The position numbers were made by a program, and so were the translations under genes. A DNA stretch of 54,656 bases, from IMG/VR virus record IMGVR_UViG_3300021335_000022, positions 1 through 54,656 of that record, one strand, 5' to 3'. The notes under the pieces were generated by a model. That model did not search any database. It saw nothing but the letters and a program-made list of their open reading frames with translations, and was not told where the DNA came from. Shown here piece after piece: positions 4,245 to 40,991 of the stretch. Numbering within the stretch: the stretch's first letter is position 1; every line of letters begins with the position of its first letter. This stretch comes from a virus.

Positions 4245-7200
4245 ATGTCAGAATTTAAAATAAGCAGATTAAGATTTAGTTGGGTAGGCGAATGGACCGA
4301 CTTGAGATTGTACAATAAAGATGAAATTGTACAGTTCAACGGTAAGGCATACGTTTGTTTAATACCTCATACAGCAAGTGGATTTTACAATGATTTAAAT
4401 GCAATCGAACCAAAGTGGGATCTAATGATGACAGGTCAAACTTGGAAAGGGCCTTGGCAGCAGTTTACATTTTATAGTTTAGATAACATTGTTATTTTTG
4501 GTGGTGTTGTTTACAAATGTAACGAACAGCATTTAAGTACTGCGGATATTAATACCGACATTGATAAATGGGACATTTATGCCGAATCGAAAACTTGGCA
4601 AAGCGAGTGGACGTCTAATAACTTATACGGTGTGGGCGATGTTGTGTACTACGGTGGTTCAACATACGAATGTACTGTACCGCACTTATCAGCTGCAACA
4701 GATTTAGAAGGACTAGAAGCAGATTATACTGACATCGACGATAGCACAGAACGCTATTGGAAACTGCTTAATTATGGCGTTCAATATAGAGGAATTTATG
4801 CAACTGAATCCGAAGACAGTTCGCAAGTAAGATACAAATTAAATGACGTTGTAAAATATGGACCTACATTATACAGATGTATTTGGGGTCACGCACCTAG
4901 TGTAGAATTTGAAGATTTTGCAGACTCAACAGAACTTTACGAAACATTTATTACTGCATACTGGGAAGAGTATCTACCAGGATTAGACTTTGACGGTGTA
5001 TGGAGTGAAAATTCTGTTTACCAACCCGGTGATGTTGTTCAATACGGTGGATACCTATTCCAAAGTACAATTATCAATAATATTAACAACAAGCCGTCAG
5101 TTCATTATGGAAATGACGACTCAACTGCACAATGGGAACTTATTACAAAAGCATATGATTTAGAAGGTGAATTTGATCCTTCTAGAGAATACAAAGTAGG
5201 ACATATTGTTACATACGGTGGAGATTTGTATGTTGCAATTTTAGATAATACAGGAAAAATACCAGGAAATTTTGAAGTACAAGCAGTGTACGAAGCAGAA
5301 GGGTCAACTGGTAATATTATTAAGCTAAACACAGCTGACTCTACTAATCCATTAGCAATCACAGTAGGTATGAGTGTTATAGGCGAAGGGTTTGCAAGTG
5401 GCCAGCAAGTAGAATATGTTGTTACAGATGAAAATACAGGTATTACAACAGTTACTCTAAATTATGCACCAGACGGATCTATCTCAGATGAAGCAATTTT
5501 AACCTTTGTTGGTACAAATTATGAATATTGGCAGTTATTAATTCCTGGTGTACAATGGGAAGGCCGTTGGACAGATTCTAGATTATATAATATTGATGAT
5601 ATTGCCTATTACGGAAATGCAACATATAGATGTACCAGAGAACACACTTCTTCTTTAGTAAGTCGTCCTGATAATGATTTACAAAATAATTATTGGACGC
5701 TTTACCTACAGCACGACCAAAGAAACACATTAAGTAATCCTGGTGAAATACTTTCATTCACATCAGCTACTGGCAATACACCAATTCAAATCGGGGCCCA
5801 GGCTACAATTTTAAAAGTTGTAGACGGACTACCTGCTTGGAGTACAATTGACCTTACTCCAAATGTTTATTATGTAGCTACTAATGGTATTGATGTGCCT
5901 GCAGGAGGTAAAACACCTGATACAGCTTGGGCAAGTGTAAAATATGCTTGTGAACAAGTATTGGAAGGTGTATTACAACAGAATGCAAAACAGTTATTAT
6001 TACAAAATAAAGAATGGGTAATTCAGGAAACATTTTATTGGTTCTTGTATCAGCAAAACAACGATTTAACACCATTTGATAACTCATACAACTTTGACAA
6101 TGAGAAAGTTTTAAGAGATGCACGATTAATTTACGATGGTGTTGTTAGAGATCTAGTTAGAGGCGGGAATGCTGTAACAGTAGAAAATGCACTATCTTAC
6201 TTTGACCTCGAAAGTACAAATAGTTTTACAAATGCAGGTGTAGCCGAACAAGCACCATTCTTCCTAGCATTTTTTGTAGAATTGTTTAACTATATCGAAA
6301 GAGCACTGACAAATACTATCCCTTCAGAGAATTATCAACAGCTTGAAATTGATAGATTGGGTGCAGATTATGTACCTGGTTCAATTAATGTTGTAACACA
6401 ATATATTAATAGTGGACTAACTCTTGAAAGCGACACTCTAACAAGAGTACAAGCTATGGAAAGAATCTACTTAGAATCATTTGCAGCAGGATCTCCAGAC
6501 AGTATTCCTCCAGCAAACGAATCTGCATACTCAACAATCTTTATTAGAGCAGGAACATACAATGAACAAATTCCTATTGTTGTACCAGCATTTACAGCAT
6601 TAAATGGCGACGAACTTCGTGGTACAACTATCCAACCTAAAAATCCAGTAAACACACTTTGTACTAGAACTATTGGTGATATTAACTTGTTTGAAGTTGG
6701 TTCTACTGTAAATATGCAGCACAATACACCTGTTCAATTTGTTTCGTTAAATCCAGTTACTGAAATTAGCACAGTTTTCGGCGATGTTATCGCAGGTCAA
6801 ACTTATTATGTAATTGGTAACAGCATTACAGACACAAGATTTAGTGTTTCTGAAACACCAGACGGACCACCGCTTGAATTGTTTACTAATATTGGTAATA
6901 TGTATGTATACGGCGGCGAAGCATTACACGATATGTTCTATGTTAGAAACGGAACCGGTATTAGAAATATGACAGTTAAAGGGTTGCGAGGAACGTTATC
7001 AGCTGAAAATGAATACTTAACAAGACGCCCAACAGGCGGAGCATATGTTTCGCTAGATCCTGGACAAGGACCAGACGATACACGTGCCTGGATTACTAGA
7101 AAGTCACCGTATGTACAGAATGTAACTACATTTGGTAAAGGATGCGTCGGACTTAAAATCGATTCAACTCTACACAACGGCGGCAACAGATCAGTAGTTT

Positions 7201-10200
7201 CAAATGACTTTACCCAGATTTTGTCAGACGGTATTGGCATTTGGTGTAAAGGCGGCGATGCTTTAACTGAAGCAGTTTCTGTGTTCTCGTACTATGGATA
7301 TGCAGGTTATTTTGCAGAAGATGGTGCTAAGGTACGTGCTACAAATGGTAACTCATCTTATGGTACATTTGGTTGTGTTGCTGAAGGATTTGATATTACT
7401 GAAACACCAGCTACCGGAACAGTTAATAATACTTCAGGAGAAGCAAACGCAAAAGCAGTTGGTGCATTAGGTGCAAATTCTGAAGTTTTAAAAATACAAT
7501 ACAATCACGCAGGTGAACAATATTACCAATCAACTACTAACTTACTACGTAACTCAAATAACCTACTAGAAAGCACTTGGGCTAATGATTCTAATGTAAG
7601 TGTAACAAGAGCAGCTACAACACCATATGAAAATGAGTTTGCTTGGAGAGCAACTGCAAATACGTCTCTTACAGATAGTGCATACATATCGCAGTCAGTA
7701 TCTGTTGCTCCGCAAGGTAGAACATATTCAAACGTCGGAGGTTTTAATATTTCTGGTTCTGGTATTAATGCAACATTTGATGTAACAGTTACAGGAAAAG
7801 AGTACCAGGTAGCAGTAAACAACGGAGGTGAAAACTACGTTGTCGGAAATCAAATTACACTAAGTGGTAAGAGCTTCGGCGGTCGTAGTCCAGAAAATGA
7901 TATTACTATTACTGTTGATGATCTAAGTATTACAGCAATTAGCGGCATACTATTCGAAGGCACAGTACCAGAAGGATCTGCACTTGCTTATAACATAAGC
8001 ATTCACGCTAAACAAGGCAATACTTCTTATTTTGATATGTATAGTACTTTTAGCGGATTTGATCCAAGACCATATTTCACTAGATTTAACTTTGACACAG
8101 AAGATTTTACTACAGGCACGGTATTAGGCAGCATCGAACTTCCTACTAACTTGCGAGCTGATTTCTTAGAAGACGGATGGTGGAGACTGTCATATACAGT
8201 ATTTGACGAAACTGCTCAAAACAATAATCTAGAAATGAAAATTTATCCTAGAGGAATAGATGGTATTGCAGGATTTACAAACTTCTACGGTGCTCAAATT
8301 ACAATTGGAGATCAGCCTTCGTTCTTCTTAGAAACAGGCAATAATCAACCATCTGCGTATGCTAATATTAAAATTACAGGTGCAGGATCAGGTGTTAATG
8401 TTGTAGCCGACGAACTTAGAACTGGCTCCGTATTCCAATCAAGAATTTTAGAAACTGAAGAAGTAAGACTCGGTGGTCTTGGTTATTTACTACAAAGTAA
8501 CAACGCACAGGCAGGTAATACAGAATATCTAACACTAGCAGGATCAGAAGTTGCAGAAGCATCAGAATACGAAGGTATGAAACTAGTTGTAAGATCGGGT
8601 AAAGGAGCAGGACAGTTTGGAATTATTGCAAATTATAATCCAGCCTCTAAACAAGCATCAGTTGTTAAAGAATCCTTTGATCAACAAGAAGTTGTATCTT
8701 CAGTCTCGTCAACTGATAGATTTTTACTAGGTCCAGGTAGCGATTTTTATAACCTCTACGTTGGACAAAAAATTCAGTTTACTCCAACTTTCTACGATAT
8801 ACTAGTACCTAGTACTTCTCAGAGTAAAATTAATGTTACAGGTACATTAGGTGATCTAAACAACTATATGTTTGTTGATAGTACAGCAAGATTACGTACA
8901 GGACAAAAAATTAACTTCAGTGGCACACCATTTGGTGGTGTTATAACTGGATTTGATTATTATATTATTGATATCATCGACGAAAGAAGTATTCAGTTAT
9001 CTACCTCATTAGGTGGAGCTGTTTGGCCGTTATCTAACGTAAATATTGAAGACCCGGACGACTCTCCGATTGTATTAACAGGTGAAGTACCAGGCTTCGA
9101 GTTAAATTATCCAGACGCTACAAGTTACCTAACAGCAAGTACAACTGCTAATATGGAGGCAACATTACCAATTCAGTTTACAAGTATTAGTATTGGTGGA
9201 ATTACACTAGGTGATGTTTATTACATTCAAGACATATTTAATGATACACAGTTTAGTATTTCTACTTCACTGTTAGATGTGACTGTTACAAATACAGATG
9301 CAGCTGATAACGGATTAACTGTTGCTGACTCTTCAAACTTACTTCCATTAAATCCTATTATATTTAAAGGAACAATGTTAGGTGGACTTGTTGAAAAGCA
9401 ACGTTATTACATAAATGAAATTATCGACGGAACTACATTTACTCTATCAAGCGGTATAAACACAACTTCTGCAACAGCAACTGAAGGCGTGTCTAACCTA
9501 ATCACAGTTACTAGTACAGCAGGATTTATTGCTAACGCTCCTATTCAATTTACAGGTGTTACTTTTGGTGGTATTACTAATGATAAAACTTACTATATTC
9601 AGGTTGTTAACGATGCAACAACATTTACGATTTCTGAAACGCCAGGCGGAGCAGCAGTTCCATTACTTACAGCAGTAGGTGAAGTAATTGTAAGGACTGT
9701 TACTGACGAAGTTACAGTTACCACAGCAGCGGGCACTATGCTAGGTAAAACAACAGGAGCTAAAGTAGTTGTAGAGTCTGGAAGAGGTGGTATGGAAGCC
9801 TCATTCTACACAGAAATTTTTGGAGGAATTACAGCAGGTCAAACTTACTATGTTAGAAATAAGTTTGATGTAAATTCAGAATTTGAAATTGAAATATCAG
9901 ATGCACCTAGTCTTAATACAACAGTTGCACTAACAGATGCAGACGGATCTATGCAGATACAAGCAGTAGGATGGGATCATATTAATGCAGGTACACCACC
10001 TGTAGCAAACTTTGACTCCACATCAGTATATGCAATTGAACCGAGAATTACTTACTCTGCTCCAACTTTCGCAGCGTATGACCTTATTGATCCTAATACA
10101 TCACTACCAGCAGAATTACCTGTTACACCTGATGATAACAATGACACATTGGGTGACGGCTATTGCACAATAGTAAGTGACGGATTTAAACCATATGCGA

Positions 10201-12140
10201 TTCCTAGAGCTGGTGATACAGTTCGTAGTACAAGTAATTTTGAAACTTGGGATCAAGAATATACTTTACCGCTATCAGGATTATCATCAACTAACGGCGG
10301 TTGGGCTGACGCTGCATTTGGTAATAACTGTTTTATAATTATTTCAAAATCTGGACAAGATTCTTTACGTTCTGTTTCAAACGGACTAACTTGGCTTACT
10401 ACTAACCTTCCTACTTTACCAGGTGGAGAGTTTTCTGCAATAACTTTCGGTAACGGAAGATTTGTTGCTGTTGCAAAAGGAATTGAGAATAGTTGTTGGT
10501 CAGACAATAACGGTGCTACTTGGAATGAAGTTACAGGCCCAATAGACATTCAAGGAAACGAAGATTGGGTAGACGTTGCATACGGTAGAGAAACATTTGT
10601 TGCAATAAGTGGTTCGTCAGACACTATAAAATATTCTACAGATGGCGGAGAAACTTGGACAGCAAGCGAAATTAGTGATACATCAACAATTAATAACTGG
10701 AGACGTATTGAGTTTGGAAATGGTAGATTTGTTGCTATTTCTGAGGAAAGTAGACCTTCTGCGTACAGCTTTGATGGCATAACTTGGTACACATCTAACA
10801 CTAATGTAAACGGAACATTAATGAAATATGGACAGGGTGTATTTTTAGCACTTGATCCTGTAACAGGTATTAGTTATACATCTTCAGATGGATTCAACTG
10901 GAAACAGCGCACCGAAACTGCTGGAGGAAATTATGGCACACTAGGATTTGGTATCGATAGTGTAACAAGAAAAGGATGGTTCTTAACGCTAGATGATCAA
11001 GGTATTACAAGTGAAAAGATAACAGCTGGTACTAAAGCCCAAGGCAGAGCCGACGTGCTTGCAGCAAAAATTTCAGACATTAGTATGCTAGAGCCAGGAT
11101 CAGGATACACTGACGACAGTTTTGGACCTACAGTAAAAATTACAGATCCTAACAATTCAGAAGAAGCGTTAATCCAATTACGTGTTGGTAATGGTACGTT
11201 AGGTGCTCCGACATTTGTTGATTTCGGTAGTGGCTACAATACTACTTCTACAGCTATTGCAATTAGAGGTGCAGGCTTTAGTGATGCATTCCAGACTGGG
11301 TTAAAATTTATTGGTAAAAATATTACAAGGCTTCCTAGTCCTGGTGATAACTTACAGTTTGAAGGTAATCCTGAAGTTTACAGAGTTGCTACAGCAACTA
11401 TTCTAAGAGGTACTACAACACCAAACTTGGAATGCGAAATTTCAATTAGTCCTCAACTTACACAAGAAACATCGCCAGTAAACGATGCAAACTTCACTAT
11501 TAGAAGTAAGTTTAGTCAAGTACGTATTACAAACCACGATTTCCTAAATATTGGATTTGGTAACGAACAACAGTCTAACTATCCAAACTTACCAGAAAAT
11601 ACAGGATTAGAACCTCAAGACGAAATTGTTGAAACAAATAACGGGCGTGTGTTCTATTCAAGTACAGACCAAGATGGTAACTTTAGAGTTGGCGACTTGT
11701 TTGCTGTTGAACAGGCTACTGGTGTTGTTACATTGAGTGCTTCAGAATTCGGACTTGAAGGTCTAACAGAATTAACAATTGGTGGTGTTGCACTTGGTGG
11801 CTCTCCAGTTGTTGTAACAGAGTTTAGTACAGACGGTACATTTGTTGCTAACTCAAATAATATTGTACCAACTCAGAAAGCAATCAGAACGTTTTTAGCA
11901 AGTAGATTGTCACAGGGTGGTTCAGATACGTTTACAGGCTTATTACAAGCTGGTACTGTAAAAGTAGGTGGACCAGACGAAATTACATCCTCAATTCCAC
12001 AGGGCGGAGAAGGATGGCAAGTTAAAATGGGTGCTAAGACAAACGTCGAAGGACCACTAGCAGGATGGGGCGGTGACGGTTTGGCAATGGCTTATTTTAT
12101 GAAGACATTTGTCGATCCTACACGCGGCGATCTGCAATAG
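4245..12140 (+). CDS. Giant adhesin/tail fibre, 2631 aa
   Basis: Multi-domain surface protein. Residues ~11-485 hold seven ~50-90-residue modules of the pattern W.G.W....Y..GDVV.YGG..Y.C...H, resembling CBM5/12-type carbohydrate-binding folds. From ~540 (NVYYVATNGIDVP) a pectin-lyase-like region begins, interrupted by one helical insert (LRDARLIYDGVVRDL...GGN, ~620-720), then IFIRAGTYNEQIPIVVP (~763) and a long beta-helix at ~897-1050 that is very similar to the downstream 4033-residue paralogue. The middle (~1150-1950) is repeated Ig/beta modules such as FTGVTFGGITNDKTYYIQ. Residues ~2010-2220 contain BNR/YCF48-like propeller repeats (FGNGRFVAVA, S.DG.TW). The C-terminus carries STDQDGNFRVGDLF (~2475), shared with the two other long fibres. 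The lack of a signal peptide and the phage context argue for a virion fibre. Function is inferred from domain style; no catalytic residues were identified. Confidence 0.8.
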   Translation: MSEFKISRLRFSWVGEWTDLRLYNKDEIVQFNGKAYVCLIPHTASGFYNDLNAIEPKWDLMMTGQTWKGPWQQFTFYSLDNIVIFGGVVYKCNEQHLSTADINTDIDKWDIYAESKTWQSEWTSNNLYGVGDVVYYGGSTYECTVPHLSAATDLEGLEADYTDIDDSTERYWKLLNYGVQYRGIYATESEDSSQVRYKLNDVVKYGPTLYRCIWGHAPSVEFEDFADSTELYETFITAYWEEYLPGLDFDGVWSENSVYQPGDVVQYGGYLFQSTIINNINNKPSVHYGNDDSTAQWELITKAYDLEGEFDPSREYKVGHIVTYGGDLYVAILDNTGKIPGNFEVQAVYEAEGSTGNIIKLNTADSTNPLAITVGMSVIGEGFASGQQVEYVVTDENTGITTVTLNYAPDGSISDEAILTFVGTNYEYWQLLIPGVQWEGRWTDSRLYNIDDIAYYGNATYRCTREHTSSLVSRPDNDLQNNYWTLYLQHDQRNTLSNPGEILSFTSATGNTPIQIGAQATILKVVDGLPAWSTIDLTPNVYYVATNGIDVPAGGKTPDTAWASVKYACEQVLEGVLQQNAKQLLLQNKEWVIQETFYWFLYQQNNDLTPFDNSYNFDNEKVLRDARLIYDGVVRDLVRGGNAVTVENALSYFDLESTNSFTNAGVAEQAPFFLAFFVELFNYIERALTNTIPSENYQQLEIDRLGADYVPGSINVVTQYINSGLTLESDTLTRVQAMERIYLESFAAGSPDSIPPANESAYSTIFIRAGTYNEQIPIVVPAFTALNGDELRGTTIQPKNPVNTLCTRTIGDINLFEVGSTVNMQHNTPVQFVSLNPVTEISTVFGDVIAGQTYYVIGNSITDTRFSVSETPDGPPLELFTNIGNMYVYGGEALHDMFYVRNGTGIRNMTVKGLRGTLSAENEYLTRRPTGGAYVSLDPGQGPDDTRAWITRKSPYVQNVTTFGKGCVGLKIDSTLHNGGNRSVVSNDFTQILSDGIGIWCKGGDALTEAVSVFSYYGYAGYFAEDGAKVRATNGNSSYGTFGCVAEGFDITETPATGTVNNTSGEANAKAVGALGANSEVLKIQYNHAGEQYYQSTTNLLRNSNNLLESTWANDSNVSVTRAATTPYENEFAWRATANTSLTDSAYISQSVSVAPQGRTYSNVGGFNISGSGINATFDVTVTGKEYQVAVNNGGENYVVGNQITLSGKSFGGRSPENDITITVDDLSITAISGILFEGTVPEGSALAYNISIHAKQGNTSYFDMYSTFSGFDPRPYFTRFNFDTEDFTTGTVLGSIELPTNLRADFLEDGWWRLSYTVFDETAQNNNLEMKIYPRGIDGIAGFTNFYGAQITIGDQPSFFLETGNNQPSAYANIKITGAGSGVNVVADELRTGSVFQSRILETEEVRLGGLGYLLQSNNAQAGNTEYLTLAGSEVAEASEYEGMKLVVRSGKGAGQFGIIANYNPASKQASVVKESFDQQEVVSSVSSTDRFLLGPGSDFYNLYVGQKIQFTPTFYDILVPSTSQSKINVTGTLGDLNNYMFVDSTARLRTGQKINFSGTPFGGVITGFDYYIIDIIDERSIQLSTSLGGAVWPLSNVNIEDPDDSPIVLTGEVPGFELNYPDATSYLTASTTANMEATLPIQFTSISIGGITLGDVYYIQDIFNDTQFSISTSLLDVTVTNTDAADNGLTVADSSNLLPLNPIIFKGTMLGGLVEKQRYYINEIIDGTTFTLSSGINTTSATATEGVSNLITVTSTAGFIANAPIQFTGVTFGGITNDKTYYIQVVNDATTFTISETPGGAAVPLLTAVGEVIVRTVTDEVTVTTAAGTMLGKTTGAKVVVESGRGGMEASFYTEIFGGITAGQTYYVRNKFDVNSEFEIEISDAPSLNTTVALTDADGSMQIQAVGWDHINAGTPPVANFDSTSVYAIEPRITYSAPTFAAYDLIDPNTSLPAELPVTPDDNNDTLGDGYCTIVSDGFKPYAIPRAGDTVRSTSNFETWDQEYTLPLSGLSSTNGGWADAAFGNNCFIIISKSGQDSLRSVSNGLTWLTTNLPTLPGGEFSAITFGNGRFVAVAKGIENSCWSDNNGATWNEVTGPIDIQGNEDWVDVAYGRETFVAISGSSDTIKYSTDGGETWTASEISDTSTINNWRRIEFGNGRFVAISEESRPSAYSFDGITWYTSNTNVNGTLMKYGQGVFLALDPVTGISYTSSDGFNWKQRTETAGGNYGTLGFGIDSVTRKGWFLTLDDQGITSEKITAGTKAQGRADVLAAKISDISMLEPGSGYTDDSFGPTVKITDPNNSEEALIQLRVGNGTLGAPTFVDFGSGYNTTSTAIAIRGAGFSDAFQTGLKFIGKNITRLPSPGDNLQFEGNPEVYRVATATILRGTTTPNLECEISISPQLTQETSPVNDANFTIRSKFSQVRITNHDFLNIGFGNEQQSNYPNLPENTGLEPQDEIVETNNGRVFYSSTDQDGNFRVGDLFAVEQATGVVTLSASEFGLEGLTELTIGGVALGGSPVVVTEFSTDGTFVANSNNIVPTQKAIRTFLASRLSQGGSDTFTGLLQAGTVKVGGPDEITSSIPQGGEGWQVKMGAKTNVEGPLAGWGGDGLAMAYFMKTFVDPTRGDLQ

Positions 12141-12173: not shown

Positions 12174-15100
12174 ATGGCAGAGTTTAAACTAGGTAGAATT
12201 AGATTTGTTTGGCAAGGAGACTGGAGTGCTTCAAGGGCATACGTTGCAGATGACGTAGTAAGCTTCGGTGGTAAGTCATACATTTGTATTAAAAATCATA
12301 CATCGTCAACTGACTTTCAAACAGACTTTACAGATGCTATTCCAAAATGGGATATTGTATCAGATGGTACAAGTTGGCAGGGCGACTGGCAACCAGAATT
12401 TACATACGCACCAGGTGACGTTGTAAAATATGGCTCATTAGTATATATTGCAGAAACAGGACATACGTCAGCTACATTTGCTGCACCAGATTACCTAGGT
12501 TTGGAAGCAGATTTAGACAAGTGGACACCGTTTGCTACATCTTTTGATTGGAAGGGTGACTGGACAATCAACACAAGATTTAAAATTAACGACCTAGTTA
12601 AATACGGTGGTTATGTATATCTCTGTAATACTGCTCACGTATCTTCTGCAACAGTGGCACTTGGATTAGAAGCTGATCAATCAAAATGGACTCTGTTTAC
12701 TGAAGGATTAAATTATTTAGGTGACTGGACTACAGCCGTACGTTATAAAGTAAATGATGTTGTTAAATATGGCGGTAACGTGTTTATTGCTATTACTCCA
12801 CACACTTCTACAGGATTTGTAGCAGATGAAGCAAATTGGGCTGTATTTATTGAAGGTTTCCAGTTTGAAGATAGCTGGGATAATTCTACAAATTACCAAA
12901 TTGGTGATACAGTTACATACGGTGGTTATGTATATGTTGCAAAAACTAATAACTCAAATGCACAACCGACTGCAAGTCCAGATGACTGGGACGTATTTAC
13001 AACAGGTTTTGCATTCCAGGGAGACTGGAGCTCTTTAGACTCTTACAAAGTCGGTGACGTAGTACGTGTAGGCGGAACAACATATGTTGCTATCGCAGAC
13101 AGTACTGATGAAGTTCCACCAAACGCTTCTTTTTGGAGTAGATTAAACTCAGGGATTAATTGGACACAAAGCACAGAGTCTTACTCACAACTATCGGGAA
13201 CTAACGCAGCAGGCGGCTCAGGGTCTGGTGCAAGATTTGACGTTACAAGATCTAAGACAGTTTATACAGTTAGTGTATCGACAGGATTTGCAGGAAGTGG
13301 TTATGCAGAAAACGATGTAATTACTATTTCAGGCGCAGACATCGGCGGCGTAACACCTGCTAACGATCTTGTAGTAACAGTTACAGCAGTTGATGGTGGT
13401 GCTGTAGATACAATTACACACACAGGTTATTCTTCCAGCTGGATTGCAGGAAGAACATACAACGTGGGTGATGTTGCTATTTACGGTGCAAGCTCATTTA
13501 TTGTTACAGCAACGCATACTTCAGAAACTGCAAACAGACCAGATAACGATTTAGATGCAAGCTACTGGAATCTACTAACATTAGGTTCAGAAGCACTTGC
13601 ACTTGAAGTAGAAGGTGATTTGGTTTACTATGGTAACCAAGGACCGACTAGACTTCCAATTGGTGTTGACGGACAGATTCTTCGTGCAACAGGCGGATTC
13701 CCAGACTGGGCAAACTATGGACTTATTGACAATGTTATCTATGTAGGACCATTAGGTACAGATGTACCTGCACCTGACTCGGGGTTAACAATTGACAAAC
13801 CGTTTAAATCTGTAGGTTATGCATTAAATCAAATTAAATTAGGATACCTAAACCCCCAGACAAGGGATATCCTAAAACATAACAAACAGTTTATGCTTAA
13901 AGAAATTACAAACTGGCTAAAATACACATACAGTATTGTAGTAACATCTACAAGTGCAGGCACACGTAGATTTACTTGTGCATCTACAGAAAACTTACAA
14001 GACAATCAACCAATTGTGTTTACTGGTGAAGTATTTGGTGGTGTAGTTGCAGGTAAAACATATTATATCGATTCGATCATTAATTCTTCAGAATTTAGAA
14101 TTTCAGAAACTCCTGCAGGTGTTTCGTTTATTCCAACTGATGCTACAGGACAGATGAACGGTGACTTAGCATACGATGAAGTTAAATGTGAAAGAGATAC
14201 AGGATTAATTATTGATGCATTAATTTATGATGTATCAAGAGGCGGCACACTCAAAACCACAGAAGCTACAAAATCTTACTATACCGAAGCAGGTAACGAA
14301 TATATTAGTAGCAACTTAGGTTTCCAAAGAGAGCAAACTGTTAGAGCATATCAACAACTAAAATCACTAGTACAAACTGTTGTTGCTAATCAAACACCTG
14401 TTAACTTTCAGTCATTAACTAATATTGAACACGGCTTTAGAGCCCAACAGGTTGTTGACTTTACGCTAACTGCTGAAGATGACGGCAAAACAAAATTAAA
14501 CACACTAATGGATATTGTAATTGACGGGATCGAAGCAGAGTCGAATACAGCTATTGCACTTCCGGTGCTTCCAAACACCACAGTGTTTATTAAGACAGGT
14601 ACATACAACGAAATACTGCCTATGATTCTTCCAGAATATACAGCAGTTGTAGGTGATGAACTTCGTACAAGTGTTGTACAGCCTAAACCTGCAGACGAAT
14701 TATTATCAAGTGACAAAGCAAAAACTACAAGTGCTCTTAATAGAATTAAAGATATTTCATCTGAGCTTATTCAAAATGTTGCTGTAACACCAACTGTAGG
14801 AAATACAACACCACAAGGTTATGTAAACGGTTATGGCGGCAATACTGAAGGTACTAACAGAATTAATAATGGTATTGAAGTAACACAAGATGTTTTACGC
14901 ACAGGACTTAGTATTGTAGATACAATGCCAGCTGTTGGACCAGCCCCAACAGGTGGAACAGGAAACGCAAGCGATGCAGGATATTCTAATGCAGTAGCAC
15001 AAATTGAAGCAAACTATCAGTTTATTAAAGACGAGATTACTGCTTGGATTGCAGTACAAGTTGCAGGACCTATTGCACCATTTGCAGGTTCTTTCACTTA

Positions 15101-18100
15101 CAATGCAGACAAATGGAACGAATATATTGAATATACACTTGATGCATTGAGATATGATGTCACATATGGCGGTAACTTCCAAACTACTGTACAAGCAAGA
15201 AGTTTCTTTGTAGACGGTAGTCCTGCATATGCTGCAGGGGAAAAGGAAGAATTACTTGCAACATTTGCACACTTAAAAACAATCGTTGGTGATGTAATTA
15301 CTGAAACAGCAATTACACCGAGTGCTGGTAATAGTACTACACAAGACACAGACGGTACAGCAGGTAGTGCAGCCGCAGAAACTTTTGCAGAAACTCTTGT
15401 ACAAGAAATTTATGATACTATTGATACTGACGGTACATTAGCATCAGAAGTTACACCAGATACATCTTGGATTAGTACATCATTAACAACTTGGAGATCT
15501 GAAATTGACACTAAGAAATCAGAAATTCAAATTTCTGTTATTGATTACATAAATTCAAACTTTGGTGATTTTGATTATGACAGCGGATCTTGCAGAAGAG
15601 ATTCTACAATTTTACTTACTAGCTCAGCCTACGATACTGCACTAGGAACAAACTTTAATAGTATTAGAGACGGTCTTGCTTATAGAAGACAAATGGGTAT
15701 TAATGTTATTCAAAATCAGTTAACACAAACTGTAGGTACTATTACAGCAGAAAGAGATCTAGCAGTTGCACTTATTTCAGATTCAGTTGCAATTACAAGA
15801 AACACTGCATACTGGAATGAAGTAATTGATATTGTCCAAAATGGCACCGCAAGTGCAGATGTTATTTCTTGGTCAAATCCTGGTGTAAATACAGATAAAA
15901 CTACCGCACGTGAATCTATCCAAACTAACAGAACAACAATTATTAATGCTCTAACTAGCTGGATTAATACAAACTATCCAAACTTAAACTATAGCCAAGA
16001 AATTTGTGAAAGAGACACAGGTCGTGTGTTAGATGCAGTAAGTTACGATATTCAGTACGGCGGTAATAGTGCATCGTACGAAGCAGCAAAAGCGTACTTT
16101 GAAGGATATGCAGAAACACTACCAGTATCTCAGAGAGATGCTTCAGTAGCAGCATTTGAGCAACTTTCTATAATTACTCAAGGATATATTACTTCAGCAC
16201 CAGAGCAAGCAGAAGCTAATACATTGATTTCTATTGTTTCAAAAGCAATTGAAGCAGGAACACTTGTTGCTCTGCCAACAAAAACATATCCAGACTACAC
16301 TTGGGCAGCAGCAGCTATCGAAGCTGACGCAGATACATTGTTAGCCGATACAACTGTTGTACCTGCTACATTACAATATGTAACAGACAACTATAGTACG
16401 TTTGAATACAATCATACTAAATGTTCAAGAGATATTGGATATATTGTTGATGGATTAGAATACGATCTATTGTTTAATTCAACGTTTAACAGCTTAAAGT
16501 CAGGAATGGCGTACCATAGAGGACTGACTTCAACTGACTTTGTGTTAGCACAACAGTTAGAGCCTTCATTGGCTGCACTTGATGTTGTACGTGAAGAAAT
16601 TAAAGAGATCACAACAGGAACTCAAGATGTTAAAGATAGTATTGAAACTATTATCGATATCCTTGTAAATGATACAAATCCAAGTTCTTATACAATTACC
16701 GATCCACCAAACTATGACACAGGATTCTTTAATGCAAGAAGACTAGTAGTTGCAAACAAACAGTTTATCATTGACGAAGCTGAAGCATACTTAGTTGACA
16801 ACTATAATGCAGTATGGACTGCACTAACAACTGCAGAACAAACAGAATGGTTAGAAGAAGTTGGTGAAACTGTTGATTCATTAAGATATGATTTAACTTA
16901 TAGAGGAAACTTAGAAACAATAGTTACTGCAAGAAGATACTATGTAGATAATCTTTTTGTAAAACCAGCGGAAGACAAAGCAGCATTTCTTGCATTGCAC
17001 GTAAGACTAGCAGATATTATTGATGATATTGCAACAGGTAGTGCTATTACAAGATCTGCAAGCAACGTAAACACCCAAGATGTAAGCGGAACTGCCGGTA
17101 GTGTAGGTGCAGGTGCATTTGCTTTAGATAGAATTACAGAAATCAAAAACACAATTGATACTGGATTACTACCTGCGTTAATTACTCCGTCAGTGGCTTT
17201 TGTAGATTCAGAATTACAAAATCTAAAAAAATCAATTGATGCAAGAGTTGAAAATATTAAAACAGGTGCTATTGCATATATTGATCAAGTATATCCTAGC
17301 TTGACTTATGACAAAGTTAAGTGTGCAAGAGATGTTGGATATATTGTAGATGCAATTACATATGACATCTTATTTGAAAGTGACTTCCGTAGTTCGCAAG
17401 CAGGACTAGCATACCGTAGAGGTATTACATCTACCGATTACGTATTAAATAATCAACTGAATGCTACAGTTCAAACAATTGAATTTATTGAAGAACAACT
17501 ATTAGAACTTACAATTGGTCAATATGCAGAAGAAGGTTCAAGAGAATCTTCAAACAAAGCATACGATCTTACAATTGGTATGCAGACTATTGTACAAAAT
17601 GGTCTTGAAGCTCTTCCACCGACAGTATACCCAACACACGATGAATGGGGCACTGACGAATATGCTAATACAGCGTATGCATCAGCAAGCAATACAACAG
17701 GTAATACAGAAACATTTAATCACGCAGTTGATAGAATTGTTGCAAACCACGCATTCATTCGAGATGAAGTTAGACATTGGTTAGAAGATCCAACTAACGG
17801 ATACGATACATTCTGGAGTGGACTAACAACAGCTTCACAAGATGCTTGCATTAGAGATGTAGGATATATTCTTGATAGCACACGCTACGATATGATTTAT
17901 GGTGGTAACACACAATCTCTAGTAACTGGTAGTGCATATTTTGTAAACTTTGTACTAACAATTGATTCAAGCGAAATTGGTGCAACTATTGCAGCTTATG
18001 GTAGACTTAAAACTGTACTTGGTGAAGTGATTGCCGGAACAACAGTTACTACAAGTCCAGGTGTTACTGAAGTACAGGATACAAGTGGATCATCAGGTAA

Positions 18101-21100
18101 TGCAGCAACAGTAGAATTTGCACAAGATCGTGTAGACGATGTATTAGATTGGATTAACAATTCAGGACCTAATGCAACTATAGATATTGCAACTGATTGG
18201 AGTGAAAATGCATATACAAATTCTTATAACCAATTAGTAGCACGTAAGAATGAAATTGTCGAAGATGTTGTATATTGGGTAGAAAAATTCTATCAGGAAC
18301 TAAAATATAATCAAGACACGTGTCGAAGAGACACAGGACTTATGGTAGATGCTATTGCACGTGATGTACTTACAGGTTCAAACTTTGCAACTACAAAAGC
18401 TGGAATGGCTTACTATAGACAAACAACATCTGCTAAAGCAGTAATTAATGATCAGTTAAAAGCGACAGTTGGATCGATTCAATTTTTAGCTGAAAAAGTT
18501 AAAAGAGTTGCAGCAACAAATCCAACAGCAGCAGTTGAATTGATTATTGATGATATTAATGCTTATATCAATGGTGGCGAACAACCAACACCTAAATGGT
18601 GTGCAACTGAAAGTTCAGACGCTAACGATGTAGCAGCATCATCTATTATTTGGGAAAATAAGAAATATATTACAGCAGAAGTTATTGAATTTATTGCACA
18701 AAATTCACCTACACTAACATATAACGTAGAAGATAAGAAGCAAGAAATTAGTAATGTTATTGATGCACTAAGATACGACCTAACATACGGAAGTAGTAGT
18801 GCAACAGTAGATGCAGGCAACTATTATTATCCAAACGGACAAGATAGTTTTATTATGTCTGAAGAAGAAAAGCAAGCAACTCTTGATGCTTATGATTATA
18901 TGAAGCAAATTGTAAGTGGACTAGCAGTTAACTCTGTTACAAGTCCTGGCGCAATTCAAGACGTTGAAACGCCTGTTTTAAGAGATTCTTTACAGATTAC
19001 AGGTAATGCTGGATCTGTTACAAAAGTGGAAGAATTAATGACTTCACTTTACAATGTACTTAGAGATCAAACAAATGTAGAAGAAATAGTAGTAACTGAT
19101 ATTACATCTAATGTGCTTACTTCAGGAACACACAATTTAAAATTAGGTGATACAATTACGTTCTCTGGATTAAACGACGGTACAATATACAATGTTAAAA
19201 CAACACCAACAGGAACTACGTTTACTGTATCTGAATACTTTAACGGTCCAACAGCATCCTTTGCCGACCAGCCAGGGACACTTATTCCAGGATATCCAAG
19301 TAGGAATGCAAACCTTACAGATGTAAATGCAACTATTAGACAACAATTTACAAATTTAACAGGATCTTTAGATGCAATTAAGACTTCTGTAACAGAATAT
19401 ATTGTTGAAAACTATCCAACTCTTGTGTACGACAACAATGCTGCGCAAGCAAATGTAGCAGACATTGTAGATGCAGTTGGTAGAGATATGATGAGCAATA
19501 CAAATTATCTAACAAATAATATTGCTAAATCATACTTCTATGATTTCAATCCAAAACTAATTGGCAATAACACAAATGCAACTGTACAAACATACAGAGA
19601 GTTGAAAAACAAAATTGCAACTTATGTAAACGGAAGTTCGCTTGCATTAAAACGTACAAACAACTTAATGGATATCATTATTCATATGATTGATAAAGGC
19701 AACGGCCAGACTCCGGAAATTAATGGTACAATGACGTACTTTAATGATAGAGAAACAATCAATGCAGTTGATGTACTAAAAGCAAATAGAAACTTCTTAG
19801 CTAGTGAAGCAGTTGCTTGGATTAACGCAAACTATGGCGGAACAGTAAATGATATCAACGGTTCACCGGGAACACTTACATTTACAGCAGCACATAACTT
19901 GGTTGTAGGAGATCCAGTTGTATTTGATTCAAACGCTTTCGGTGGCGCAGTTGCAGGCACAACATACTGGGTAACTAATGTACCAAGTACAACTACTATT
20001 GAAGTATCAGACTCAAAAGGTGGAGAAGCACTTACATTTGATGGCGGCGCTGGCTCTAGTGTTGTAACATACAAATTAAACGAAGAACAGCACCGTGCTT
20101 ATATTATTAGGTATATTGACTCTATTGTATATGATTTACAATATCCAGGTAATCATAAGTCTTGGAAGTCTGCAGAGCTATATCTTAATGCAATTAACGG
20201 ATCACTACGCTCTGATATGTATCACGTAAGAAATGCAACAGGTGTACGTAATATGACTGTTAACGGTTTACGTGGTAACTTGACAGAACTAAACAACTTT
20301 GGAACAAGACGTCCAACAGCAGGTTCTTATGTATCACTTGATCCAGGCTTTGGTCCTTGGGATACAGAAGCGTGGGTAACTAACAAATCTTGTTATGTAC
20401 AAAACGTAACTACATTCGGTGTAGGCTGTGTTGGTTGTAAGATTGACGGTGCATTACACGCAGGCGGTAACAGATCTATTGTTAGTAACGACTTTACACA
20501 GGTACTAAGTGATGGTATTGGTGTGTGGTGTAGCGGTAACAACTCACTAACAGAACTTGTTTCTGTGTTCGCATACTACAACTATTCAGGTTACTTAGCA
20601 GACTTTGGTGGACGAATTCGTGCAACAAACGGTAACTCATCTTATGGTACTTACGGTGTTATTGCTGAAGGTACTGACACTGGCGAAAATCCAATTTATG
20701 CAGAAGTTGATAACTTATCACAAGATGCACTTATCTCAAATGTAATTACAGACGGTGAAGAACAAGTGTTGCGTTTTGAATATTCAAATGCTGGTAGAGA
20801 CTACACTAATGCAGAAATTGCAATTAGTGGAGCAGGATTTAATGCAGCAGTTATTCAAGATGAATTTAGAGACCAAGCAGTTATTGAAACAAGACTGATA
20901 GATCTAGATGATAACAATGGCACAGGTGGTGATGACTATGTTTCAGCACAAAACGTTGCCCAGGGTGGTGATACAGTTTCAGCAACTATTGCTGCAACAG
21001 ACACAGCACTAGGCGGCGCTTATGTAGGAATGAATATTCAACTTACTGCTGGTACAGGTGTTGGACAATTCGGTAGAATTATATCTTTTAACAACGGTAC

Positions 21101-24100
21101 AAAACAAGTTAAAGTTTACAAAACAACTTCAGAACCATTTAATATTATTGGTACTGCATCAGCTAATAATAGAGTGTTTTATGACGCTGGAGAATTTACA
21201 CAGTTGTACGATAATATGCCAGTATACCTAAGTGCAGATATTGGAGGACTGACAGCGGCAACTCTTTACTATGTTGTATTCTTTGACGGTAGTTCGTTAG
21301 AATTAAGTACATCCGAAGGTGGCGCAGCAGAAACACTTACAAACTCTTCAGATAATGTTAAAATGTATGAAGCTGGTTGGGATCATATTATTCCAGGTAC
21401 TCCAATTGCAGCAGGCTTAGACCTAACAACAGGTTATAGAATTGAAGCAGCAATTGATTATACAGAACCAGGATTTACAGCAGTTGATCAAACAATGGCA
21501 ACAGCTAACATTAATTACGGTGCCCATACATATGCAGACAATAAATTTATTGCTCTACAGGACGGCGGGACAGCAACTAACATATCAACAGATGGTAAAA
21601 CTTGGACAGCAGGTGGCACATTGCCAGTATCCGGTAGTTGGACTAAAGTAGCATACGGAGGCGGCCAAGGCGCAACTGCAACAGCTATTGTTGGAGGATT
21701 AGGCGGATCTGGCGCTATATTAGAAGCAGAACTAGGCGAACTTAACAGCATTGGTTTACCAGGACCGACACAGATTGCTAGAGTAAATGTTGTAAATGGT
21801 GGACGCGGCTATGTAACTGCTCCGACTATTGTGTTTACAGCAGTACAAGGTGGCGGCGGCGCAAGTGCTGTTGCTACAGTTAAAGACGGTATTATTCAAG
21901 AAATTATTATTACAAGTACTGGTGCAGGTTATGCAGCAGCACCAACAGTAACAGCAGAAACAGACAAAGTTACTGAAATTATTGTTAATAGTTTTGGTAG
22001 AGGATATTTAAATGTTCCAACTATCACATTGACAGGTGGCGGAGCAAGCACACAAGCAAGTGCTACAGCAACAATTAATAATCAAGGTCTTGCAACAGTT
22101 ACTATCGATGTAGACGGAGATGACAATCCATTACGCGGTGAAGGATATACAAGTGCTCCAGAAGTAGTAATTACTGATAACAATGCAGGGTGGGTAGCAA
22201 TTTCTGAAGGTACTGCAAACAATGCATTCCTTGCAGCAGGTCAAACAGCAGCTACAAACTGGACAGGTGGATCTCCACTACCAGGTACTGCACACAATGA
22301 CATTGCTTATGGTAATGGTACTTGGGTAGCAGTAGGCGGCGACGGCAATGGTGGCGCAGCGACATCAACAGATGGTAGTGCTTGGGTGTCAAGAACAATT
22401 ACAACACTTGCAAGCGGTACTGACGAATTTATCGGAGTTGCGTATAACGGCATAAACTTTGTTGCAATTTCACAAAGTGATGAATCAGCAGTAAGTTCAA
22501 ACGGTATTACTTGGACAGCAGGTGGCGCACTTCCTACAGCAGTAGGTGATTGGGTAGCAATTGAATATGGTAACGGAAGATTTGTTGCTATTGCTACTAC
22601 AGGAGAAGTTGCAGTAAGTACCGATAATGGAACTAATTGGAGAGCTTCAAATGCAGGACTTGTAAATATTACAGACCCAACATTCTGGACAAACATTGGA
22701 TACGGTCAAGGTTTATTTGTAGCAGTAGGTGAAAACGTAATTGCTACAAGCCAATACGGATTAGATTGGAGCAGACGCTTTATTGATGGCACTGCTGAAA
22801 AATGGTATGGTGTTGCATTTGGTAACCCAGACAATGATCCGATTTGGTCAATTGGTAACGGACCGAGTGCAGCTACTCAAGGTTTACAACTAAGACTTAA
22901 AACTGGTGCAAAAGCATTTGGTAGATGTTTAGATGAAGATGGTTCTATAACAAGTATTAGACTTGCAGAACCAGGAAGTGGTTATCCTTGTGGTACAATT
23001 CTAAGCACAACTGCACCAAATACACTAGAAGTAAGTAGCTCAGATAATTTAAGACTAAATCAACCAATTGTATTTGAAGGAGTTAGCACCGGTTCTTCAG
23101 CAGGCGGCAGCGGCGGTGGCAGTGGCGGCGGTGGCTACAGCATATCAAATGTTGGCACTGGCACAGATACTACTGCAACCCCGATAGGATTAGATACAGA
23201 AACAGTTTATTATATTAAGTCAATTGTTGGTACAAATATTACTATTAGTTTAATTAAAGGCGGAGATGCATTTGATATTAGTACGGTAGATGCAGCGGAT
23301 ATTGGAGATGTATACTTTAAGGCAGGACCTGAAGTGACAATTACAGATCCTAATTCTACAATTCCTGCAGCAGTTTGGCCAAGACTTAGAGACGGAGCAT
23401 TAGCTAACCCAACCTTTACTAACAGAGGTACAGGCTATACAACTGCAACTGCTGAACTAGCAGGTGACGGTAGTGCAGACTTATATCAACCGGCAACATT
23501 TATTGCAGTACGAGGACTGTTCGAATTACCAGAACCTGGATCAAACGTTGAATTTGCGAACATTCCAAACGCTTGGTATAAACTTGTTACAATTAGTAAT
23601 GTTATTGGTCAACCAGGCAGCTATACGGCAACATTCCAAATTAGTCCAGGACTAACAGTATTAAATGCACCAAAAGACGGAATACGCCTTACTACAACTA
23701 ATAAGTATTCACAAGTACGTCTAACAGGACACGACTTCTTGTATATTGGTACAGGAAACCAAGCTAAGACAAATTATCCGTTTGTTGATATTACAACAGC
23801 GTATATTGAAGCTCAGCAACTAAGTTCGGGCGGTGGTAGAGTGTTCTTTACAAGTACTGACCAAGACGGTAACTTTAACGTTGGTGGCTTGTTTGGAGTT
23901 CAGCAGTCCACAGGTACTGCGACATTGGATGCTGACGCATTTAACTTAGCAGGCTTGCAGTCATTGCAGCTTGGCGGTATTGCAGTTGGTATTGGATCAG
24001 CTGTTATTACACAATTTAGTACTGACCCGTTCTTTACTGAAAACAGTGACAACATTGTTCCAACGCAACGTGCAATTAAATCATATATTACTGCACAAAT

Positions 24101-24275
24101 TGGTGGTGGACAATCAAGTCTAAACGTTAACACACTAACAGCAGGTGTAATATTCATTGCAAACGATGAAATCACTACTACCAGTGGAGGACAGCTAAAT
24201 ATTAAAGCTAAAATGAACTTTACAGGCGGTATTGACGGAGCTCCAGTAGCACTTGGATACTTCTTAAGCAGATAA
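12174..24275 (+). CDS. Giant adhesin with tandem helical modules, 4033 aa
   Basis: At 12.1 kb this is the largest gene in the window. Residues ~11-466 repeat the seven carbohydrate-binding-like W.GDW...Y..GDVV.YGG..Y modules of the upstream paralogue. A pectin-lyase-like start (NVIYVGPLGTDVP ~520; VFIKTGTYNEILPMILP ~801) is split by inserted helical modules. Between ~660 and ~2680 about twelve ~130-160-residue helical modules with the signature C.RD.G...DA..YD...GGN alternate in two flavours. The beta-helix resumes at ~2681 (YHVRNATGVRNMTV) and runs to ~2830. BNR/YCF48-like repeats (GNGRFVAIA, S.DG.TW) fill ~3105-3540, a Gly/Ser linker follows at ~3643, and STDQDGNFNVGGLF lies at ~3894. The ribosome-binding site and late box support the ATG at 12174. 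It is probably a host-recognition fibre. The paralogue next door has only one helical module, so the array is an expansion. Confidence 0.8.
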   Translation: MAEFKLGRIRFVWQGDWSASRAYVADDVVSFGGKSYICIKNHTSSTDFQTDFTDAIPKWDIVSDGTSWQGDWQPEFTYAPGDVVKYGSLVYIAETGHTSATFAAPDYLGLEADLDKWTPFATSFDWKGDWTINTRFKINDLVKYGGYVYLCNTAHVSSATVALGLEADQSKWTLFTEGLNYLGDWTTAVRYKVNDVVKYGGNVFIAITPHTSTGFVADEANWAVFIEGFQFEDSWDNSTNYQIGDTVTYGGYVYVAKTNNSNAQPTASPDDWDVFTTGFAFQGDWSSLDSYKVGDVVRVGGTTYVAIADSTDEVPPNASFWSRLNSGINWTQSTESYSQLSGTNAAGGSGSGARFDVTRSKTVYTVSVSTGFAGSGYAENDVITISGADIGGVTPANDLVVTVTAVDGGAVDTITHTGYSSSWIAGRTYNVGDVAIYGASSFIVTATHTSETANRPDNDLDASYWNLLTLGSEALALEVEGDLVYYGNQGPTRLPIGVDGQILRATGGFPDWANYGLIDNVIYVGPLGTDVPAPDSGLTIDKPFKSVGYALNQIKLGYLNPQTRDILKHNKQFMLKEITNWLKYTYSIVVTSTSAGTRRFTCASTENLQDNQPIVFTGEVFGGVVAGKTYYIDSIINSSEFRISETPAGVSFIPTDATGQMNGDLAYDEVKCERDTGLIIDALIYDVSRGGTLKTTEATKSYYTEAGNEYISSNLGFQREQTVRAYQQLKSLVQTVVANQTPVNFQSLTNIEHGFRAQQVVDFTLTAEDDGKTKLNTLMDIVIDGIEAESNTAIALPVLPNTTVFIKTGTYNEILPMILPEYTAVVGDELRTSVVQPKPADELLSSDKAKTTSALNRIKDISSELIQNVAVTPTVGNTTPQGYVNGYGGNTEGTNRINNGIEVTQDVLRTGLSIVDTMPAVGPAPTGGTGNASDAGYSNAVAQIEANYQFIKDEITAWIAVQVAGPIAPFAGSFTYNADKWNEYIEYTLDALRYDVTYGGNFQTTVQARSFFVDGSPAYAAGEKEELLATFAHLKTIVGDVITETAITPSAGNSTTQDTDGTAGSAAAETFAETLVQEIYDTIDTDGTLASEVTPDTSWISTSLTTWRSEIDTKKSEIQISVIDYINSNFGDFDYDSGSCRRDSTILLTSSAYDTALGTNFNSIRDGLAYRRQMGINVIQNQLTQTVGTITAERDLAVALISDSVAITRNTAYWNEVIDIVQNGTASADVISWSNPGVNTDKTTARESIQTNRTTIINALTSWINTNYPNLNYSQEICERDTGRVLDAVSYDIQYGGNSASYEAAKAYFEGYAETLPVSQRDASVAAFEQLSIITQGYITSAPEQAEANTLISIVSKAIEAGTLVALPTKTYPDYTWAAAAIEADADTLLADTTVVPATLQYVTDNYSTFEYNHTKCSRDIGYIVDGLEYDLLFNSTFNSLKSGMAYHRGLTSTDFVLAQQLEPSLAALDVVREEIKEITTGTQDVKDSIETIIDILVNDTNPSSYTITDPPNYDTGFFNARRLVVANKQFIIDEAEAYLVDNYNAVWTALTTAEQTEWLEEVGETVDSLRYDLTYRGNLETIVTARRYYVDNLFVKPAEDKAAFLALHVRLADIIDDIATGSAITRSASNVNTQDVSGTAGSVGAGAFALDRITEIKNTIDTGLLPALITPSVAFVDSELQNLKKSIDARVENIKTGAIAYIDQVYPSLTYDKVKCARDVGYIVDAITYDILFESDFRSSQAGLAYRRGITSTDYVLNNQLNATVQTIEFIEEQLLELTIGQYAEEGSRESSNKAYDLTIGMQTIVQNGLEALPPTVYPTHDEWGTDEYANTAYASASNTTGNTETFNHAVDRIVANHAFIRDEVRHWLEDPTNGYDTFWSGLTTASQDACIRDVGYILDSTRYDMIYGGNTQSLVTGSAYFVNFVLTIDSSEIGATIAAYGRLKTVLGEVIAGTTVTTSPGVTEVQDTSGSSGNAATVEFAQDRVDDVLDWINNSGPNATIDIATDWSENAYTNSYNQLVARKNEIVEDVVYWVEKFYQELKYNQDTCRRDTGLMVDAIARDVLTGSNFATTKAGMAYYRQTTSAKAVINDQLKATVGSIQFLAEKVKRVAATNPTAAVELIIDDINAYINGGEQPTPKWCATESSDANDVAASSIIWENKKYITAEVIEFIAQNSPTLTYNVEDKKQEISNVIDALRYDLTYGSSSATVDAGNYYYPNGQDSFIMSEEEKQATLDAYDYMKQIVSGLAVNSVTSPGAIQDVETPVLRDSLQITGNAGSVTKVEELMTSLYNVLRDQTNVEEIVVTDITSNVLTSGTHNLKLGDTITFSGLNDGTIYNVKTTPTGTTFTVSEYFNGPTASFADQPGTLIPGYPSRNANLTDVNATIRQQFTNLTGSLDAIKTSVTEYIVENYPTLVYDNNAAQANVADIVDAVGRDMMSNTNYLTNNIAKSYFYDFNPKLIGNNTNATVQTYRELKNKIATYVNGSSLALKRTNNLMDIIIHMIDKGNGQTPEINGTMTYFNDRETINAVDVLKANRNFLASEAVAWINANYGGTVNDINGSPGTLTFTAAHNLVVGDPVVFDSNAFGGAVAGTTYWVTNVPSTTTIEVSDSKGGEALTFDGGAGSSVVTYKLNEEQHRAYIIRYIDSIVYDLQYPGNHKSWKSAELYLNAINGSLRSDMYHVRNATGVRNMTVNGLRGNLTELNNFGTRRPTAGSYVSLDPGFGPWDTEAWVTNKSCYVQNVTTFGVGCVGCKIDGALHAGGNRSIVSNDFTQVLSDGIGVWCSGNNSLTELVSVFAYYNYSGYLADFGGRIRATNGNSSYGTYGVIAEGTDTGENPIYAEVDNLSQDALISNVITDGEEQVLRFEYSNAGRDYTNAEIAISGAGFNAAVIQDEFRDQAVIETRLIDLDDNNGTGGDDYVSAQNVAQGGDTVSATIAATDTALGGAYVGMNIQLTAGTGVGQFGRIISFNNGTKQVKVYKTTSEPFNIIGTASANNRVFYDAGEFTQLYDNMPVYLSADIGGLTAATLYYVVFFDGSSLELSTSEGGAAETLTNSSDNVKMYEAGWDHIIPGTPIAAGLDLTTGYRIEAAIDYTEPGFTAVDQTMATANINYGAHTYADNKFIALQDGGTATNISTDGKTWTAGGTLPVSGSWTKVAYGGGQGATATAIVGGLGGSGAILEAELGELNSIGLPGPTQIARVNVVNGGRGYVTAPTIVFTAVQGGGGASAVATVKDGIIQEIIITSTGAGYAAAPTVTAETDKVTEIIVNSFGRGYLNVPTITLTGGGASTQASATATINNQGLATVTIDVDGDDNPLRGEGYTSAPEVVITDNNAGWVAISEGTANNAFLAAGQTAATNWTGGSPLPGTAHNDIAYGNGTWVAVGGDGNGGAATSTDGSAWVSRTITTLASGTDEFIGVAYNGINFVAISQSDESAVSSNGITWTAGGALPTAVGDWVAIEYGNGRFVAIATTGEVAVSTDNGTNWRASNAGLVNITDPTFWTNIGYGQGLFVAVGENVIATSQYGLDWSRRFIDGTAEKWYGVAFGNPDNDPIWSIGNGPSAATQGLQLRLKTGAKAFGRCLDEDGSITSIRLAEPGSGYPCGTILSTTAPNTLEVSSSDNLRLNQPIVFEGVSTGSSAGGSGGGSGGGGYSISNVGTGTDTTATPIGLDTETVYYIKSIVGTNITISLIKGGDAFDISTVDAADIGDVYFKAGPEVTITDPNSTIPAAVWPRLRDGALANPTFTNRGTGYTTATAELAGDGSADLYQPATFIAVRGLFELPEPGSNVEFANIPNAWYKLVTISNVIGQPGSYTATFQISPGLTVLNAPKDGIRLTTTNKYSQVRLTGHDFLYIGTGNQAKTNYPFVDITTAYIEAQQLSSGGGRVFFTSTDQDGNFNVGGLFGVQQSTGTATLDADAFNLAGLQSLQLGGIAVGIGSAVITQFSTDPFFTENSDNIVPTQRAIKSYITAQIGGGQSSLNVNTLTAGVIFIANDEITTTSGGQLNIKAKMNFTGGIDGAPVALGYFLSR

Positions 24276-35672: not shown

Positions 35673-35678
35673 ATTACT

Positions 35679-35707
35679 ACTATACAATCTTTTACCGGAT
35701 TAGTCAA
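35679..35707 (-). promoter_or_regulatory. Sigma70-type promoter for the HldE unit
   Basis: Read on the - strand, TTGACT (35707-35702) is followed after exactly 17 bases by TATAGT (35684-35679). The expected start of transcription, 6-7 bases downstream, coincides with the hldE ATG at 35672, so the message may be leaderless. The two boxes match the host housekeeping consensus in all but one and two positions, which predicts early or host-polymerase expression, unlike the late box of the facing unit. Confidence 0.75.
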
Positions 35708-40887: not shown

Positions 40888-40942
40888 TCACCTTTTTGAC
40901 CCCTTTTTCAGGGTGTTTAACGCACCGTTTTTATTACAAGCT

Positions 40943-40950: not shown

Positions 40951-40991
40951 CAAGTAGCAAAACTACGATTCGTAATAACAGGAGAACGATA

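Follow-up and report, generated by a model that had tools for sequence, protein, structure and literature searches.

Tail-adhesin beads of a predicted phycobiliprotein fold with a candidate bilin site in a virus record and its relatives

The window analysed here is a 54.7-kb linear virus record (the whole 54,656 nt of IMGVR_UViG_3300021335_000022), in which the paralogous proteins P0001 and P0002 are most likely tail adhesins, because the neighbouring genes make up a baseplate, tail and terminase set. P0001 contains twelve copies of a module of ~100–150 residues, which structural modelling identifies with high confidence as a phycobiliprotein-fold (bilin-globin-like) domain. By a slight preference over the alternatives weighed below, we read these modules as tail-adhesin beads of phycobiliprotein fold, many of which probably bind bilin. 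Twelve such beads would be strung in the adhesin, copies 2–11 within one insertion between parts common to the paralogue. Many beads of the family would hold a bilin at a Cys-x-Arg-Asp site, the Cys-less beads would be fillers, and the bilin would be supplied by a cyanobacterial host or made by the phage's own heme oxygenase and bilin reductase.

The two genes and their modules, all on the plus strand, are as follows; the modules were located with an iterated hidden Markov model (HMM).

4245..12140, +, P0002, 2631-residue paralogue with one module
5979..6314, +, single module of P0002 (VLRD, Cys lost; iterated HMM)
12174..24275, +, P0001, 4033-residue tail adhesin (most likely), with N-terminal CBM5/12 matches, 12 modules of predicted phycobiliprotein fold and a C-terminal tail-fibre part
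14055..14390, +, module 1 (KCERD), counterpart of the P0002 module
14979..15305, +, module 2, YF flavour, C.RD lost (KWNEY)
15483..15779, +, module 3, YRR flavour (SCRRD)
15894..16193, +, module 4, YF flavour (ICERD)
16335..16616, +, module 5, YRR/YHR flavour (KCSRD)
16725..17036, +, module 6, YY/YF flavour, C.RD lost (EWLEEV)
17211..17507 (HMM core), +, module 7, YRR flavour (KCARDVGY), Cys at P0001 residue 1717; structure predicted over 17196-17642
17715..18035, +, module 8, YF flavour (ACIRD), second module in the two-module model of 17193-18191
18210..18512, +, module 9, YYR flavour (TCRRD)
18627..18926, +, module 10, YY/YF flavour, C.RD lost (KKQEI)
19335..19631, +, module 11, C.RD lost (AAQAN)
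20061..20216, +, module 12, partial, no Cys

A template-free AlphaFold2 model of module 7 has a predicted local distance difference test score (pLDDT) of 88.9 and a predicted template modelling score (pTM) of 0.85. When this single-module model was compared with the PDB by Foldseek, the 50 best rows were all phycobiliproteins or proteins derived from them, with a probability of 1.00. The VIA structure comparison gave the same outcome for its 50 best rows, with a Z score of 15.2 and 2.2 Å over 128 residues, and residues 1–134 of the model aligned with residues 31–177 of the phycobiliprotein chain. The first-pass annotation, a reading of the letters alone, had suggested predicting the structure of two adjacent units. 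In the resulting model (17193-18191; pLDDT 80, pTM 0.68, linker pLDDT 41–49) both modules match phycobiliproteins with Z ~15, including the biliverdin-binding smURFP; some rows cover residues 2–177 of the chain, whereas the single-module model aligns only from residue 31. Models of tail proteins from the cyanophages S-H9-1, S-PM2, S-CAM1 and S-WAM2 in a viral library also match the module model.

The same family is reached from the sequence side. The Pfam Phycobilisome profile (PF00502) matched P0001 weakly (E 5e-4), and a set of 99 modules was therefore collected from the window and related viral contigs. A PDB profile search with these modules returned 21 matches, 20 of them to phycocyanin alpha (best E 0.012, in register on Cys84). 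Module by module, Phycobilisome was the most recurrent Pfam family (8 of the 99, best 1.9e-5), the next family being hit by two modules at 0.05; it scored above the Pfam cut-off in 4 of 23 phage records. Aligned by hhalign with 24 cyanobacterial phycobiliproteins, the modules gave a probability of 88.6 and a score of 41.3, as against 15.8 for a heme oxygenase profile, at most 16.0 for 40 column shuffles and 12.9 for the reversed alignment.

The CXRD motif is the bilin site of phycobiliproteins, in which the Cys makes the covalent link and the Arg and Asp hold the pigment (PMC10151467). The C.RD of the modules aligns with this bilin-attachment motif, Cys84-x-Arg86-Asp87. All three residues are present in 84 of the 99 modules, and they tend to be kept or lost together: the Arg is found in 84 of 87 Cys-bearing modules and the Asp in 87 of 87, compared with 2 and 5 of the 12 Cys-less ones (Fisher p 1e-9 for R and 5e-8 for D, the related sequences not being independent). 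This joint trend recurs in the cyanophages, in the bilin-reductase contigs and in the window's own clade. The C.RD position also accounts for 87 of the 114 cysteines among the 99 modules. Whether a bilin or similar ligand is bound in at least some of the phages is, from sequence and models, an evenly balanced call, and the Cys-less copies are probably structural only.

Genes for bilin metabolism and bilin attachment occur in several module-bearing phages. In all six cyanophages checked, which belong to different genera, a cpeT gene lies just upstream of the module-bearing tail gene on the same strand (S-PM2, S-H9-1, S-RSM4, S-CAM4, Syn1 and S-WAM2), only tRNAs and a few small genes intervening; cpeT was found in none of 18 jumbo or bilin-reductase contigs. 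The cpeT-family gene of S-H9-1 is unannotated in its record (L034:4075-4578, that is S-H9-1 32008-32511; PF06206, E 4e-43). In four module-bearing non-cyanophage records a heme oxygenase gene adjoins ClpS and has a bilin reductase gene at its side or close by; one of the four, a phage of 275 kb, has a terminase with 87% identity to the window's. The bilin genes of the relatives lie elsewhere in the genome, apart from the module-bearing tail genes. The ClpS/heme oxygenase/bilin reductase group was seen at L448:8480-10055 (the 275-kb relative), L053:1575-4609, L054:6637-8145 and L055:8721-11766, with a tryptophan halogenase in between in one case and two fatty-acid desaturase-like genes in another. 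Among contigs chosen by their bilin reductase, 16 of 50 carry modules, including all six longer than 90 kb.

Modules were found in 248 of 50,697 named phage records (184 Synechococcus, 53 Cyanophage, 10 Prochlorococcus and 1 Marine), and in each of the eight contigs of 60 kb or longer from the window's clade. The profile did not find them in T4, KVP40, PA5oct, HTVC008M, Mosig, P-SSM2, P-SSP7, S-CRM01 or Ma-LMM01.

Several results weigh against the proposal of bilin-binding beads. On the structural and sequence side, the Foldseek E-values are only ~0.01, and the window copy scores 20.5 bits against a Pfam cut-off of 22.2. Masking the four CxRD columns brings the hhalign score down to 15.7, the background level, with the register unchanged. 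Given this fall, the sequences offer little to show homology outside the motif: support extends to the fold and to the motif in its corresponding position, and common ancestry is not proven by the remaining sequence. On the genomic side, the 16 of 50 bilin-reductase contigs are not significantly above a marine T4-like control (3 of 19, p 0.24); a second control, chosen by carbamoyltransferase, was set aside, as it consisted mostly of small contigs. No module was detected in the Pelagibacter phage Mosig, which does encode heme oxygenase and PcyX, nor in P-SSM2, and one 268-kb record with modules has neither bilin gene. Neither heme oxygenase nor bilin reductase was found in the window's own record. 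CpeT-type lyases, moreover, are reported for the Cys153-type site and not the Cys84-type (PMC10452541). A strict coupling of modules to bilin reductase was dropped in view of the 16 of 50 versus 3 of 19 comparison, the module-free Mosig and P-SSM2 and the 268-kb record. In Mosig, which was isolated on a heterotroph, PcyX and heme oxygenase (L148:9651-10887) stand in the structural region, between a neck-protein gene and a 2OG-Fe(II) oxygenase gene.

The leading alternative is that the modules are structural spacers or rigid beads which have the phycobiliprotein fold by chance or inheritance, the C.RD being a packing or capping motif with nothing bound. In its favour, 5 of the 12 window copies are Cys-less and yet part of the array, some module-bearing phages have no detected bilin genes, and phages with bilin genes can be module-free. 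A lone Cys concentrated at one site and lost jointly with the Arg and the Asp, however, resembles a ligand site more than a packing motif, and a plain spacer leaves unexplained why all six cyanophages checked have cpeT next to the tail gene. We therefore regard the spacer as somewhat unlikely, though the strongest competitor.

The second alternative is that of the first-pass annotation, which described a helical module array breaking up a putative beta-helix and interpreted it as a telescoping stalk or variable-length ruler that sets the reach of the adhesin and changes its copy number by recombination. Its description of the array was largely borne out. The sizes of the two open reading frames (ORFs), 4033 and 2631 amino acids, were confirmed. 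In a self-comparison of P0001 with 40-residue windows the copies aligned well above background, with scores up to 147 against at most 46 for shuffled sequence, and the iterated HMM recovered the expected twelve copies in P0001 (window 14055-20216) and one in P0002 (5979-6314). Tile BLAST joins all array copies at ~20–43% identity. As a signature of the module, the C.RD motif held in copies 1, 3, 4, 5, 7, 8 and 9 (7/12) and failed in copies 2, 6, 10, 11 and 12, where the Cys is absent; copy 12 is partial, with only ~52 residues. The alternation of two flavours stood up over copies 2–10, with copies 3, 5, 7 and 9 in one set and copies 2, 4, 6, 8 and 10 in the other, and each of these copies is most similar, within P0001, to another of its own set.

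The layout of the array is that of an insertion. The counterpart of the single P0002 module is copy 1 of P0001, and copies 2–11 form one insertion at about P0002 residue 808: P0001 660–845 aligns with P0002 603–807 before it and P0001 2557–2877 with P0002 809–1093 after it, the flank past the insertion being 62–70% identical between the two proteins by tile BLAST. Since the array is mostly one insertion between paralogue-common flanks, it may lie off the fibre axis, which speaks against a ruler.

The ruler can point to real variation in copy number. Homologues at the same locus, in phages whose terminases are 83–92% identical to that of the window, have 2, 2, 2, 3, 5, 5, 6 and 12 modules compared with 12 in the window (for some of them the stretch counted is truncated at its ends); the adjacent paralogue retains a single module. 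Two relatives have the array gene divided between a pair of adjoining ORFs, with 1 + 4 modules (L452:3834-12121 and L453:2210-10806). The variable-length idea is thus upheld for the clade as a whole, from 2 to 12 copies, and not as telescoping: the models predict a compact, globin-like domain for each module and a linker of low confidence between neighbours, so a telescoping stalk is unsupported. Growth by recent unequal recombination was not borne out either. The nearest relatives have the same 12 copies, corresponding one-to-one by position at 36–77% identity (a 13th match in some being a fragment), whereas the copies of P0001 among themselves are at most 42% identical, and the search for tandem repeats in the DNA over the array found none. 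The length of the array does change over evolution, but this one-to-one correspondence and the lack of near-identical copies and of tandem DNA repeats give no sign of current expansion. A ruler is, in our judgement, improbable, and its proponent had overlooked the phycobiliprotein fold and the bilin-attachment motif.

Two further alternatives appear very improbable. The modules might bind heme, another tetrapyrrole or a metal in place of bilin, for example for iron supply; the fold is globin-like, and iron supply has been discussed as a role of phage hemO (PMC11480375). The heme-globin version of this idea was rejected, as the 99 modules contain no conserved column of the (proximal) His that classical heme globins need, and CXRD is the bilin motif of phycobiliproteins and of the bilin biosynthesis-associated globins (BBAGs) of heterotrophic bacteria (PMC10151467). 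Equally remote is the view that the modules serve receptor binding and host range, with variation of the surface being what matters and the core incidental: S-PM2d088 and S-PM2d218, two large module-bearing tail proteins of S-PM2, did mutate during coevolution with Synechococcus (PMC9910659), but the kept C-R-D core would be left unexplained, and CBM5/12 matches elsewhere in P0001 already provide glycan binding.

Nearby genes of the window encode a baseplate wedge, further tail fibres, tail sheath, tail tube, terminase and a single-strand DNA binding protein. Both P0001 and P0002 match tail-fibre PHROGs and CBM5/12 in domain and profile searches. The cyanophage-type tail-fibre profiles PHROG 4527 and 9851 are among the profiles matched in the analysis. 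There are seven CBM5/12 carbohydrate-binding matches in P0001 (12174-13600) and six in P0002 (4245-5700), those placed being N-terminal. Residues 2075–2159 of P0002 (window 10467-10721) match the YCF48 (photosystem II assembly factor)/BNR propeller weakly, with an E of 2e-4 that is below the cut-off. The tail sheath protein (window 40896-44351) may be up to 1151 amino acids long from a TTG start, its match beginning at residue 33. A carbamoyltransferase gene lies at 29648-31483 on the plus strand, and a sugar/heptose cluster at 32096-35687 on the minus strand (phosphoheptose isomerase-like, nucleotide-sugar epimerase, heptose kinase/adenylyltransferase-like and 2OG-Fe(II) oxygenase genes). A cyanophage origin of the window is not supported, on two grounds: its terminase most resembles those of Pseudomonas PA5oct-like jumbo phages (55%), and psbA was looked for in the record and not found.

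Among known systems, the phycobiliproteins themselves (phycocyanin, phycoerythrin and allophycocyanin; PF00502) are closest to the proposed bilin-binding beads, in the predicted fold over nearly the whole module, in the C-x-R-D at the bilin site and in the Y and G-G/D positions that follow it. They differ in that identity is ~10–15%, that the phage modules are tandem beads in a tail adhesin and not alpha/beta light-harvesting discs, and that the phage module aligns from about residue 31, with the N-terminal helices X-Y missing or supplied from elsewhere; bilin binding by the phage modules is, furthermore, a prediction. The BBAGs are bilin globins outside light harvesting, of which BBAG-1 and BBAG-3 have the CXRD motif and take up bilin without lyases (PMC10151467). 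They share this motif with the phage modules; BBAGs, however, are encoded in a bilin gene cluster, whereas the phage modules belong to tail genes that lie apart from those for heme oxygenase and bilin reductase. All 99 modules match phrog_4527 (short tail fiber protein), and this family together with PHROG 5342 and 701 is annotated as tail fibre or virion structural only, with no fold or ligand given. The T-type phycobiliprotein lyases CpeT of the six cyanophages are linked to the modules by gene position; CpeT is, in difference, a lyase and not an acceptor, and is thought to act on host phycoerythrin at the Cys153-type site.

What such beads would do in the virion can only be proposed tentatively. 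Attachment of some cyanomyoviruses requires light; P-HM2 has been modelled as effectively non-adsorbing in the dark, and P-SSP7 shows no light effect. S-PM2 is reported by Jia et al. (2010) to be among the light-dependent phages. P-HM2 has five modules and P-SSP7 and P-SSM2 have none, a fit that covers few phages and proves nothing. It is conceivable, though doubtful, that light controls host attachment through the modules, an idea with which the coevolution mutations in S-PM2d088 and S-PM2d218 (PMC9910659) would also agree. The wider proposal is equally speculative: the virions of many marine T4-like and jumbo phages would be pigmented, with bilin beads of the tail fibre forming a photoreceptor that switches attachment with light. 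Photoprotection, stability of the beads or a plain structural role are other possible functions.

What phages gain from heme oxygenase and bilin reductase is considered enigmatic, a bilin globin partner having been mentioned only as a possibility (PMC11480375), and these enzymes are puzzling even in phages whose hosts have no phycobilisomes, where their role has been called "enigmatic" or "unclear" (PMC11480375, PMC2984593). Even without a ligand, repeated tail beads of predicted phycobiliprotein fold seem not to have been described before: a search of open-licence papers yielded no description of phycobiliprotein-like domains in phage virions, which does not prove novelty. If the beads do bind bilin, a tail-borne bilin-globin-like acceptor would give the phage bilin enzymes a product to decorate and open their purpose to tests in existing phages, among them S-PM2, P-HM2 and S-RSM4, and a pigmented virion would tie phage bilin genes, phage cpeT and light-dependent adsorption together. 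The modules would then be a virion-side candidate for the light-dependent adsorption of cyanomyoviruses, and some of the largest tail proteins of the sea that lack annotation would gain a first function.

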